A stretch of DNA of 64,000 nt from Halanaerobiales bacterium. GTDB lineage: Bacteria; Bacillota; Halanaerobiia; Halanaerobiales; DTU029. The stretch is from the NCBI GenBank assembly GCA_029981855.1, contig JARRCS010000013.1:1-64000 (forward strand). Reading direction: 5' to 3'. Position numbers and translations under genes: made by a program. Shown here piece after piece: positions 27,463 to 46,255 of the stretch; positions within the stretch are counted from its first letter, which is position 1, and every line of letters starts with the position of its first letter. The notes beneath the pieces were generated by a model, which was given only the letters and a program-made list of their open reading frames with translations, was not told where the DNA came from and did no database searches.

Positions 27463-27636
27463 TTACTCAGCCAGTTTAGCTGTCAGTTCATTAACCCTGT
27501 TGACCAATGCTTCAATGATATTCTCAAGTTTATTCATTTTATCAGCATCAAACGGGGTTCCTTCTTTAATTATGTTTCCTTCTCCGTCAACTTCTTCATC
27601 GACCCAATTGGTTTTCTTATACTCTAGTTTTTCCAT
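27463..27636 (-). CDS. Small protein with tail-fibre N-terminal motif
   Basis: This 57-residue protein, with ATG 27636 after AAGGAGG, reads KKTNWVDEEVDGEGNIIKEGTPFDADKMNKLE and then a short leucine-rich coiled coil (IIEALVNRVNELTAKLAE). The first part matches the N-terminus of the fibre-like protein at 3352-3837 (W-x-DEVV-DE-GN-I-x-EGT). Finding this motif among early genes is odd. It is flanked by a hammerhead ribozyme upstream and a 13-bp inverted repeat downstream. Confidence 0.8.
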   Translation of the reverse strand: MEKLEYKKTNWVDEEVDGEGNIIKEGTPFDADKMNKLENIIEALVNRVNELTAKLAE

Positions 27637-27670
27637 ATAAACACCTCCTTTCATAAACTTCTTATAGCCT

Positions 27671-27728
27671 GTCTCATCAGGACGGGTAGGCCACCTCCCG
27701 CCAACAGGGCATAAGGCCCTGTTTCGAC
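27671..27728 (-). ncRNA. Type II hammerhead ribozyme
   Basis: In minus-strand order: GTC (stem II 5' strand), GAAA core, stem III CAGGGC-CUUAU-GCCCUG, UU, stem I GGCGGG...CCCGUC (six pairs including one G-U), core CUGAUGA, then GAC (stem II 3' strand). All invariant core positions are present: C3-UGAUGA9, G12-AAA15.1, U16.1 and H17 (here U). The predicted cut is between 27703 and 27702. Stem II has only three Watson-Crick pairs before weaker pairing. It fills the gap between the TAG of the 51-residue gene and the RBS of the 57-residue gene. Confidence 0.82.
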
Positions 27729-27883
27729 TAATCAGTTGCTGCTACAGACCTTTTTAAATCTTCCATTTGCCGCTCTTCATATATCTGGGCTGCTTCTTCG
27801 GCGATTCGGTGAAGGGTTTCCTCGGATAGACCCGGATAACTTTCTTTCAGATTTTCTTTAACCCGTTCTTTGACATCGTTCAT
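27728..27883 (-). CDS. Small acidic helical protein
   Basis: This 51-residue protein with a GGAGGTG ribosome site upstream is fully helical in appearance (VKERVKENLKESYPGLSEETLHRIAEEAAQIYEERQ). No family is recognised. The last base of its TAG stop is also the first base of the hammerhead stem II, so ribosomes finishing this gene would run into the ribozyme. Confidence 0.75.
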   Translation of the reverse strand: MNDVKERVKENLKESYPGLSEETLHRIAEEAAQIYEERQMEDLKRSVAATD

Positions 27884-29457: not shown

Positions 29458-31500
29458 TTAAAAATCAAAACCTAATGCCTTCCTTAGTTCCTTCATATCC
29501 TGCTTTTTTTGTTTCTCCCTGTCGATTTTTTCTTTCTGCTCTTCAGTAAACATCTTAAAGAGTTCGGTTATATTATCATCCTGACCCTTAGTTGCTGCAC
29601 TCTCTCTGGCCTGTTTGTTTTGCTGCTTGTCCATTTTCTTAAGTGAATCATGAAAGTCTGGTTTAATTAGTTCTACCACCTTGGGATTATCAACCGGGTC
29701 TTCGGCCTGCATCCTGCGCCTTTTTTCTTTTTCTTTATCTTTGAGCTGGTCTTCAAGAGTGTATTCCTTCACCTGGACGAGATGTTCCTTGAATTCTTTA
29801 ACTGGTTGTTCGATTTTTTTGCGCATACTGTGGTATTCTTTCATCTGTTTTTCATCTGCAAAGATAGGATGAGATTTCTCTATGGCATAGGCCATGCAGA
29901 TCAGGTTGTCCTTCAGGTCACAGATATATACCTTTGTCAGGTCATCACTCTTGTAACGGACTATAACATCTTGACCATAATATTGCGCTAATTCTGGGCT
30001 GGTATAGTTTTGATTGAAGAGCTGGATACCGTTTCTCCTGACCTTGCGTGTGCCTGGTGATTTGGTCATCAAAAAGGCCAGGTCTTTTTCGCTGATCCAG
30101 CGGGTTTTCTTCAAGTTATTTTTATATACAACCCTCGGGCTTTTCCCGTTCATCGCCTCCCCGGTCTGGGGCCTTTCGTGATAATCCACATCCAGCCATT
30201 TGGCAAAGGTTTCTTTAAAGTCTTCAAAGGGGATAATATTGCTTTTATCCTTCAAAATATCTTCCAGGGATTCTTTGCGTTCCTGAACATTCCCGCCTCT
30301 AAAGGTTTTGAACTTTCTGTCGAAGGTATCTTTAACGATTTTAAAAGTCGGTTCAATTATTTTAGCCCTGGCATTAAAGGGAATGGCAAAATGGGGAGTT
30401 ATCTTTAATGCTTCAATCATTGAGGTAGCCTGATCTTGATCATATGAAATTTTCTTCTCACTTTCTTTGACCCGGCCACCAGCAAAAATCTTGGCCCGGT
30501 AATCTTTTCCGTTGTCAATAATGATGTGTTCGGGAGCCCCGTATTCCTCAATGGCTCGTCCAAAACTTTCCATAATGGTATTTAGGTTCGGGTTCAGGGT
30601 GATTGTGTAACCAACAAAAACAGATGACCTCATATCCAGCCAGGCTGTTAACCAGGGGGCTTTGATGGACCCATCTTCCATCAGTACAAAAACATCAAAC
30701 TGCCGGTGGTCTCCAACCCAGACCTCATTACTCTTCAGGAGGGTTCTGTCCCTTTCAATATATGGTAGTACCTTATTTTTGAATGCTGTTTTACCTTCAC
30801 GAAGAGCAATTTTGACCTGTGGTTTTAAATACCTCGGGTCTTTCACATACCTTCTCATGGTCCTTTCAGAGGGTATCTTGCCCCAGCCTTCTATTTTGGC
30901 TTTGGTCTTTACCGTCCGGTAACATTCAGATATAGAAAGCTGATTCTCGGTCAGATACAGTTTAAGAAAAAGCCACCAGGCATCCGGATTAATGTTTTCC
31001 GGAACCCCCTCCGGGGTAGAACTCTTTTTGAGGCCTCGCCGATCCATCAGACCCACGATACCTTCTTCTTTTAAGATCTTTTTGTCCCGGTAATAGGTTT
31101 TGGTGGAAAAGGGCCTGTCCGGGTAACTGGCTTTAACCACCTTACAGGCCTTGCGGGTAGCTTTGGTTTTGCCCATCCCCTCGGCCATGAATTCTTCAAT
31201 TAGTTCATCTGCCAGGTCAACCATTTTCTTTTTGATAATACCTTCCTCCCGGGCCCATTCGGCAAAATCCCCTACAGAATACGGTATGTAAATGTCATCA
31301 TCAGGTTTCTCTTCCTGAGCTAAGTGTCGGGCTATAGCCTCCGGGGGAAGGTTGAAAAGGTTAATCTTCATCACCTGGCCACCGCGCCCCATGCCTTCTA
31401 CATATTTAACCTGGCCGTATTTACCGTTGTTGGCATTTTTTTGGACTGCCCTCTCGGAAATGCCGCATAGTTCTGCTACCGTGCCGGTGTCTAGGAACAT
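29458..31500 (-). CDS. Mu-type transposase A
   Basis: This is a 680-residue DDE transposase. The N-terminal wHTH (VAELCGISERAVQKNANNGKYGQVKYVEGMGRGGQVMKINLFNLPPEAIARHLA) is followed by end-binding HTH domains (about 80-230). The catalytic core holds Asp in WVGDHRQFD (near 266), Asp in IIIDNGKDYRAKIF (near 332) and Glu in KIIEPTFKIVKDTF (near 383). A C-terminal basic region with LRKALGFDF probably contacts MuB. It drives integration and replicative transposition of the phage. Confidence 0.96.
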   Translation of the reverse strand: MFLDTGTVAELCGISERAVQKNANNGKYGQVKYVEGMGRGGQVMKINLFNLPPEAIARHLAQEEKPDDDIYIPYSVGDFAEWAREEGIIKKKMVDLADELIEEFMAEGMGKTKATRKACKVVKASYPDRPFSTKTYYRDKKILKEEGIVGLMDRRGLKKSSTPEGVPENINPDAWWLFLKLYLTENQLSISECYRTVKTKAKIEGWGKIPSERTMRRYVKDPRYLKPQVKIALREGKTAFKNKVLPYIERDRTLLKSNEVWVGDHRQFDVFVLMEDGSIKAPWLTAWLDMRSSVFVGYTITLNPNLNTIMESFGRAIEEYGAPEHIIIDNGKDYRAKIFAGGRVKESEKKISYDQDQATSMIEALKITPHFAIPFNARAKIIEPTFKIVKDTFDRKFKTFRGGNVQERKESLEDILKDKSNIIPFEDFKETFAKWLDVDYHERPQTGEAMNGKSPRVVYKNNLKKTRWISEKDLAFLMTKSPGTRKVRRNGIQLFNQNYTSPELAQYYGQDVIVRYKSDDLTKVYICDLKDNLICMAYAIEKSHPIFADEKQMKEYHSMRKKIEQPVKEFKEHLVQVKEYTLEDQLKDKEKEKRRRMQAEDPVDNPKVVELIKPDFHDSLKKMDKQQNKQARESAATKGQDDNITELFKMFTEEQKEKIDREKQKKQDMKELRKALGFDF

Positions 31501-44595: not shown

Positions 44596-45909
44596 TTACA
44601 GCCAGATAAAGTAGGCCAGGAAGATCACACCCAGGGTATAGACTAACCAGTGAACATCTCTACCCTTACCTGTAAAGAGCTTAACCAGGGGATAGACGAT
44701 AAAACCGATGGCAATACCATGGGCAATTGAATAACTTAAAGGCATAACTATCATAGCCATAAAGGCGGGTAATACCTCGGTAAAATCATCCCAGTCTATC
44801 TTAGTAATATTAGAGATCATCATAGTACCAACGATAATTAGGGCCGGGGCCGTTGCCGCAGCAGGTACAATACCAATTAACGGCTTAAAGAATAGGGACA
44901 GGAAGAAGAGAATAGCGACAACTACACCGGTTAATCCTGTCCGGCCACCTGCCGCAACACCGGAGGCAGACTCAATATATGTAGTTACTGTACTGGTACC
45001 AAAGAGGGCACCACCTGTTGTACCGATGGCATCTGCCAGTAAAGCCTGACTGGCCCGGGGCAGGTTACCCTCTTTATCGAGATACCCTGCCTGCTGGCTA
45101 ACACCGACCAGAGTACCGGCCGTATCGAACATATCAACAAAGAGGAAGGAGATTAAAACCCCGAATAAACCAATATTAAGGGCCCCGGCAATATCTAACT
45201 TAAATAAAACCTCAGACCAGTCTGCCATCCTAGGCATGGCAAATATTCCCTGAAAAGCCGGGGTAACGGTAGCATCACCATTAGGTACCAGCCAGCCAAA
45301 AATTGTAGCCAGAATAATACCCCAGAGCAATGCGCCCTTGACCCTTAGTGCATAGAGGATCCCTGTAATAATTAAACCGACTAGTGCGACCAGTGCTGGA
45401 CCAGAAAGGATATTCCCCAGACTAACTAAAGTTGCGGGATTATCCACAATTATTCCGGCATTCTGCAACCCGATAAAGGCAATAAACAGACCAATACCTG
45501 CACTGATACCGGTCTTTAATCCCATTGGTATTGAATTAACTATCATCTTTCTTACGGGAAGCAAACTTAAAATAATAAAGATTATACCTTCGACAAATAC
45601 AATTCCTAAAGCAATCTGCCAGCTGACATCCATCCCGATAACTACAGAATAAGCAAAGAAAGCATTGAGCCCCATACCGGACGCCAGGGCAAAGGGGTAG
45701 TTAGTTAAAAAGGCCATCGCTAATGTACCGAGGATAATACCGGCTATGGTAGCCATAAAGACACCGTTAAAGGGCATCCCGGCATCAGACAGAATAGCGG
45801 GATTAACAAAAATTATGTAAGCCATCGTCATAAAGGTAGTAAAACCTGCCAGTACCTCAGTCTTAACATCAGTCTTATTTTCCTTCAGTTTAAAAAGACT
45901 ATCCAACAT
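44596..45909 (-). CDS. NCS2/AzgA-type purine permease
   Basis: This is a 437-residue membrane protein with about 12-14 helices. Family marks: FKLKENKTDVKTEVLAGFTTFMTMAYIIFVNPAILSDAGMP at the start, ALASGMGLNAFFAYSVV, FLFVDMFDTAGTLVGVSQQAGYLDKEGNLPRASQALLADAIGTTGGALFGTSTVTTYIESASGVAAGGRTGLTGV. This is the guanine/hypoxanthine/adenine (PbuG/AzgA) subgroup. The guanine riboswitch upstream makes guanine or hypoxanthine the probable substrate. Confidence 0.94.
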   Translation of the reverse strand: MLDSLFKLKENKTDVKTEVLAGFTTFMTMAYIIFVNPAILSDAGMPFNGVFMATIAGIILGTLAMAFLTNYPFALASGMGLNAFFAYSVVIGMDVSWQIALGIVFVEGIIFIILSLLPVRKMIVNSIPMGLKTGISAGIGLFIAFIGLQNAGIIVDNPATLVSLGNILSGPALVALVGLIITGILYALRVKGALLWGIILATIFGWLVPNGDATVTPAFQGIFAMPRMADWSEVLFKLDIAGALNIGLFGVLISFLFVDMFDTAGTLVGVSQQAGYLDKEGNLPRASQALLADAIGTTGGALFGTSTVTTYIESASGVAAGGRTGLTGVVVAILFFLSLFFKPLIGIVPAAATAPALIIVGTMMISNITKIDWDDFTEVLPAFMAMIVMPLSYSIAHGIAIGFIVYPLVKLFTGKGRDVHWLVYTLGVIFLAYFIWL

Positions 45910-46017: not shown

Positions 46018-46081
46018 GAAAAAAAGCCCCGGCAAGGGTAAATTCCTTGCAATGTACGAAGGAACTTACCCGCCCAGGCTT
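46018..46081 (-). terminator. Riboswitch-controlled terminator
   Basis: Minus strand: GCCTGGGCGGGTAAGTTCCTT (46080-46060, 5' arm) pairs with AAGGAATTTACCC...GGGGC (46048-46025), followed by seven T residues. The 5' arm includes the conserved 3' end of the PRPP aptamer, so ligand binding and termination are mutually exclusive. Confidence 0.82.
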
Positions 46082-46166
46082 TTATCCCCACGGTGTAGTA
46101 TCACTTAAAGTGAAACCTGCACCACTCGGTCCAGACCTTGATTAAAGCGGAACCCTAGGTGCACTT
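46066..46166 (-). promoter_or_regulatory. PRPP riboswitch aptamer (ykkC subtype 2b)
   Basis: In order on the minus strand: GTGCACCTAGGGTTCCG, TGGACCGAGTGGTGCAGGT, a variable hairpin (TTTCACTTTAAGTGA), ACACCGTGGGGATAAAAGCC, then TGGGCGGGTA. The CTAGGGTTCCG, CCGAG, ACAC and GGGATAAAAGCC blocks are the ykkC signature, and the GGGCGGGTA end matches what I recall of PRPP aptamers rather than guanidine ones. ppGpp (subtype 2a) aptamers are very similar, so the ligand call rests partly on the adjoining guanine aptamer. Confidence 0.82.
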
Positions 46167-46167
46167 C

Positions 46168-46236
46168 CCTCGTAGTCAGGTAGTTTACGGCCACCCGGTA
46201 GAAACTTGTGAACCATATCTTCACAATTATACGAGG
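46168..46236 (-). promoter_or_regulatory. Guanine riboswitch aptamer
   Basis: Minus strand: P1 CCTCGTATAAT, GATATGGTTCACAAGTTTCTACC and CCGTAAACTACCTGACTACGAG fit the purine aptamer with its two kissing loops. The discriminator base in GACTA is C, which selects guanine/hypoxanthine; adenine aptamers have U. It lies directly upstream of the PRPP aptamer, separated by one or two bases. Confidence 0.93.
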
Positions 46237-46255
46237 CTTTCCTTATGTCATTTTT

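Follow-up and report, generated by a model that had tools for sequence, protein, structure and literature searches.

The 64,000-nucleotide stretch of DNA analysed here (the window) carries a type II hammerhead ribozyme on its minus strand, in the early operon of a Mu-like prophage. Judging from its sequence, the element is almost certainly a genuine hammerhead ribozyme, for which self-cleavage is predicted. Ribozymes of this kind are known already; the place of this one is unusual, as it lies after MuB and before a 57-residue gene and Gam. It is probable that it works as such in the sense strand of the early mRNA and that its cut splits the transcript into two gene blocks with separate fates.

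Identity and structure of the ribozyme

The type II hammerhead was first proposed from the letters alone, together with an Infernal search with the Rfam type II model as a check. This search has been run, and positions 27663-27729 (minus strand) match RF02276 with 47.1 bits, which exceeds the curated gathering score of 37; in a search against all Rfam families, the E-value is 1.6e-6. A covariance model made from 23 other hammerheads, with the window copy excluded, gives 69.5 bits (E 5.2e-18) in the window and independently confirms the claim. The match is the only one to RF02276 in the whole 2.59 Mb genome. The features of the ribozyme and of its neighbourhood are collected in Table 1.

Table 1. 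The window ribozyme, its parts and the surrounding early genes.
Feature	Coordinates	Strand	Basis or remark
Type II hammerhead ribozyme	27663-27729; core and pseudoknot 27665-27728	-	RF02276, independent model
Stem II 5' strand GUC	27726-27728	-	Sequence; first G is the final base of the upstream TAG (27730-27728)
Conserved GAAA (G12 A13 A14 A15.1)	27722-27725	-	Sequence, Rfam match
Stem III hairpin ACAGGGC-CUUAU-GCCCUGU, 7 bp	27704-27722	-	Sequence, Rfam match, fold
Predicted cut between U17 (27703) and 27702; triplet GUU	27702-27703	-	Sequence, inferred from hammerhead core
Stem I hairpin, 6 bp and inner pairs competing with the pseudoknot	27681-27702	-	Sequence, Rfam match, fold
Loop I UGGCC, pseudoknot 5' partner	27689-27693	-	Sequence, family covariation
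Catalytic core CUGAUGA (C3-A9)	27674-27680	-	Sequence, Rfam match
Stem II 3' strand GAC	27671-27673	-	Sequence
Tail GGCUA, pseudoknot 3' partner	27665-27669	-	Sequence, family covariation
Upstream gene, 51 aa	27728-27883	-	Stop codon TAG 27730-27728, one-base overlap with ribozyme
Downstream gene, 57 aa	27463-27636	-	ATG at 27636; phrog_9010 match 7e-6, function unassigned
MuA-like transposase, 680 aa	29458-31500	-	Mu-transpos_C 6.5e-17, phrog_310 4e-113
MuB-like ATPase, 323 aa	28463-29434	-	AAA_22, Phage-MuB_C
Gam-like end-protection protein, 168 aa	26789-27295	-	Phage_Mu_Gam 5.8e-36
GemA-like protein, 134 aa	25605-26009	-	GemA 9e-18

The core CUGANGA, the GAAA, U16.1 and H17 (here a U) are all present; stems I and III end in loops and stem II is open, in the type II order. 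The first-pass annotation had placed the coordinates, the core and the stems correctly: the 6 bp of stem I (GGCGGG, 27702-27697, with CCCGUC, 27686-27681, one pair being G-U), the GUC/GAC of stem II and the CUGAUGA were all found on reading the sequence, and its cut site between 27703 and 27702 agrees with the one predicted from H17 at U27703. Stem III also stands where it had been put, but it has 7 bp rather than 6 when the A15.1-U16.1 pair is counted (27722-27716 with 27710-27704). What that reading had missed is a pseudoknot of five possible pairs, one of them G-U, between the UGGCC of loop I and the GGCUA tail that follows stem II. Such a pairing of loop I and tail is common among type II hammerheads, though not universal.

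Two features of the window copy depart from the expected picture. The triplet at its cleavage site is GUU, the usual one being GUC. Further, in the minimum-energy fold UAGUC pairs with GGCUA, which would displace both stem II and the pseudoknot; therefore, the folding of the ribozyme may be slow. By eye, this alternative pairing does not appear to be general among the aligned relatives.

Covariation in the family agrees with the structure. Among 23 homologues, which are ribozymes of other phages, 96.9% of the pair cells hold standard pairs, against 76.5% with shuffled partners and 25-42% with slid partners. The 96.9% is partly built in, since the motif scan used to choose the homologues demanded the stems. 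Changes on both sides were observed at 15 of the 20 pairs, and these include pairs of the pseudoknot, which the scan did not demand. In the 101 members that were parsed, an average of 4.5 of the 5 pseudoknot pairs are present; shuffling loops and tails lowers this to 3.9, and none of 1000 shuffles exceeded 4.04. An extra base after CUGAUGA is found in 66 of the 101 members and is absent from the window copy.

The junction and the proposed function

On the same strand, the order of genes is MuA, MuB, small genes, the ribozyme, the 57-aa gene, Gam and GemA, which is that of a Mu-like early operon. The profile matches to MuA, MuB, Gam and GemA, which stand in the early order, thus support the earlier reading of a Mu-like prophage with a ribozyme slot between its early genes. 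The ribozyme was also said to fill this gap exactly. It does begin on the final base of the stop codon, but a spacer of 14 nt lies between the pseudoknot tail and the Shine-Dalgarno sequence AAGGAGG (27650-27644, minus strand) that serves the 57-aa gene. Like other Mu-associated ribozymes, it lies on the sense strand and near MuA and related early genes. A position directly upstream of MuA is a frequent feature of such ribozymes and not a required one; the window copy is found about 1.7 kb past the MuA stop codon.

The proposed mechanism is as follows. The early genes would be made as one mRNA and, during transcription, the RNA would fold, with loop I pairing to the 3' tail, and cut itself after U27703. 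The upstream piece would hold MuA, MuB and the small genes and would end in the stem III hairpin just past a stop codon. The downstream piece would hold the 57-aa gene and Gam onward and would have the stem I hairpin at its front, a short way ahead of the Shine-Dalgarno sequence; stem I is kept at the 5' end in the predicted fold of this product. As no reading frame or ribosome site would be lost by the cut, its likely use is the separation of the fates of the two blocks, which could then differ in stability and translation. Terminal hairpins can slow exonucleases, and products with a 5'-OH can also be degraded, as in the case of the glmS ribozyme; therefore, the effect of the cut could go in either direction. 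Only its context suggests that the cut may help the phage. The restriction of hammerheads to the sense strand, the slot from stop codon to ribosome site and the presence of different ribozyme classes at like positions, all described below, point to the cutting of polycistronic early mRNA. For asking what self-cleaving ribozymes do in bacterial viruses, the window junction offers a small, concrete and testable system.

Hammerheads across Mu-like loci

Transposase alignments yielded 121 Mu-like loci, and for 104 of these the MuA coordinates were tabulated. In about 63 of the 104 (the window counted), covariance searches detected type II hammerheads, approximately 100 distinct ones in all, though these are not independent events as many of the loci are near relatives. 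The counts are based on covariance models because a scan with motif expressions alone gave weak false matches, with a null of about 6 type II motifs per pass over 1.9 Mb. Every one of the hammerheads is on the sense strand of MuA. In 47 of 101 cases, MuA itself follows as the next ORF, and most copies lie upstream of that gene; only six, the window copy among them, are downstream of the MuA start. One hammerhead lies between MuA and MuB (L111) and another ahead of GemA (L066).

At some loci, two to four hammerheads occur in tandem. Three loci (L121, 4596-6315; L086, 2239-4331; L133, 4259-6605) have four type II hammerheads in series before MuA, several of them split by small genes. A 1.4 kb cluster at another locus (L036, 686-2025) combines an RF02276 hammerhead and a twister-P5 from Rfam with motifs resembling hammerheads I and III from our own scan.

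The association with MuA is a matter of location. In 47 genomes, 54 of the 63 RF02276 matches fall inside MuA loci, which make up 0.5 Mb of the 159 Mb; the genomes were selected by their transposases, and so this ratio does not describe prevalence. A hammerhead match is present in only 5 of 398 genomes taken from the phylum.

The slot seen in the window recurs. Out of 97 testable copies, 52 begin 0-5 nt past the stop of an ORF of at least 45 aa, compared with 1.6% of random positions, and in 18 of the 97, the window included, there is a one-base overlap with the TAG stop of such an ORF. The start codon that follows is mostly some 20-25 nt beyond the ribozyme. It can be argued from these figures that cleavage is gated by translation. 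Because the first base of stem II belongs to the stop codon, the core would be covered by a ribosome that is terminating there, and the cut would come only after the departure of that ribosome, thus reporting or following the end of upstream translation. A like slot in two non-Mu phage loci (L163, L165) fits this idea. However, tight packing of genes alone would give the same spacing, and about one-third of the copies have no ORF of at least 45 aa ending within 25 nt upstream. Gating by the ribosome appears unlikely to us, and a cut that separates the two gene blocks is the reading we prefer.

Other ribozyme classes and earlier work

Rfam searches of 22 loci with no detected hammerhead were carried out for other ribozyme classes. 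A pistol ribozyme is present upstream of MuA in two of them (L083 and L119). In a third (L082), twister-P5 ribozymes lie between a 73-aa gene and MuA and, again, between a 159-aa gene and MuB. The occurrence of pistol or twister upstream of MuA in three hammerhead-free loci suggests that it is the cutting, and not one particular RNA fold, that may be kept. RAGATH-28 RNAs were noted in two Mu-like loci without a detected hammerhead (L091, 15744-15829; L048, 7981-8064). A bolder proposal is that, in phages of Firmicutes, self-cleaving ribozymes of several unrelated classes serve as interchangeable scissors in the gap from a stop codon to the next ribosome site, and that the ribosome which has just finished the upstream gene controls the cut. 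If this were true, translation of the upstream gene would set the time at which the messenger for the transposase or Gam is freed; we offer it only as a long shot.

Much of this setting has been described before. In 2011, Perreault reported type II hammerheads, the pseudoknot that they form and their occurrence in clusters around prophage genes, and one prophage cluster cleaves in vivo in E. coli (PMC3088659). The window copy shares with these RF02276 hammerheads the stem order, the core, the short stem II, the pseudoknot and the place between prophage genes; it differs in the GUU at its cleavage site and in that its cleavage is predicted from sequence. According to PMC10085705, which cites Roth 2014 and Weinberg 2015, Mu-like phage genes are the strongest gene association of bacterial hammerheads and twisters; the reason for it is termed unknown there. 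Such neighbourhoods have been used to find new ribozyme classes (PMC10085705; PMC4604425), with which the class exchange seen here agrees. The hammerheads and twisters of PMC10085705 and the pistol of PMC4604425 share with the present loci the setting of a self-cleaving ribozyme in a Mu gene cluster, with different classes in like places. To call a hammerhead in a Mu-like early operon a new regulatory layer, as the first-pass annotation did, is an overstatement, the setting being already published (PMC3088659, PMC10085705). Part of what is given here on the slot statistics and on the exchange of classes may be new.

Origin of the window copy

In a quick tree of MuA proteins, 54 hammerhead carriers fall into a clade of 56 that is separate from the window MuA; the latter sits on a long branch, which makes its own position in the tree uncertain. 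The covariance model detected no hammerhead in 36 loci found with the window MuA and its closest relative among those collected (one locus is shared with the earlier set). A hammerhead at the same junction was sought in related prophages (L166 and other loci with near MuA), and none was found. Scans of viral and genome contigs with single proteins gave no close relatives of MuB or MuA; relatives were found by the alignments. Bacillus phage BalMu-1 and the IMG/VR locus L166, the MuA of which is 34% identical to that of the window, are Mu-like with the order MuA, MuB, Gam, as in the window; unlike it, they have no detected hammerhead. As the ribozyme is absent from the closest MuA relatives, selection on the window junction cannot be shown.

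By sequence, the nearest ribozymes are those of Anoxybacillus phage A403, an ardC-like locus and an IMG/VR contig. The closest one found is an unannotated type II hammerhead in A403 (MG969427, about 30286-30356; L164, 5000-5073). Like the window copy, it has the tail GGCUA and stands just before a Shine-Dalgarno sequence in an early region. In contrast to the window copy, it is not adjoined by the stop codon of any annotated gene, it has GUC at the cut and other base pairs in stems I and III, and no transposase is annotated in the 10-kb stretch analysed. The simplest account is that the window ribozyme was probably a separate gain by exchange among phages.

Further hammerheads were noted at two other loci. 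Between consecutive genes of Roseobacter phage CRP-212 (MZ892988; L165, 2288-2361 and 3038-3121) lie two type II hammerheads that are unannotated, and at L038 (6600-6678), a type II hammerhead comes right after a TAG stop and before an ArdC-like antirestriction gene.

A ribozyme gained from another phage may, of course, be active or decaying and have no function in its new prophage. The single copy in the genome, the lack of a counterpart in the nearest MuA relatives, the closeness in sequence to the A403 and ardC-like-locus hammerheads, the missing extra base and the GUU in place of GUC can all be read in this way. Decay, however, should show breaks, and the core bases, the three stems and the pseudoknot are all intact, with stem sequences of the copy's own; we give a functionless gain a low probability. 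That the element is no ribozyme but a transcription terminator or a chance hammerhead-like fold, as might be supposed from GC-rich hairpins in an intergenic gap that were first spotted by eye, is extremely improbable in view of the covariance scores and the family covariation, and an intrinsic terminator (a GC-rich hairpin and then a T run) was rejected, no terminator-like site being present in the region. A working hammerhead that divides the early mRNA remains the preferred reading.

Another RNA element in the window

Elsewhere in the window, a purine riboswitch is immediately followed by a borderline match to RF00442 (64.6 against 63 bits) at 46069-46254 on the minus strand, upstream of a permease-like ORF of 437 aa (44596-45909). 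This pair may correspond to the guanine-PRPP tandem, an arrangement already known, and not to guanidine.
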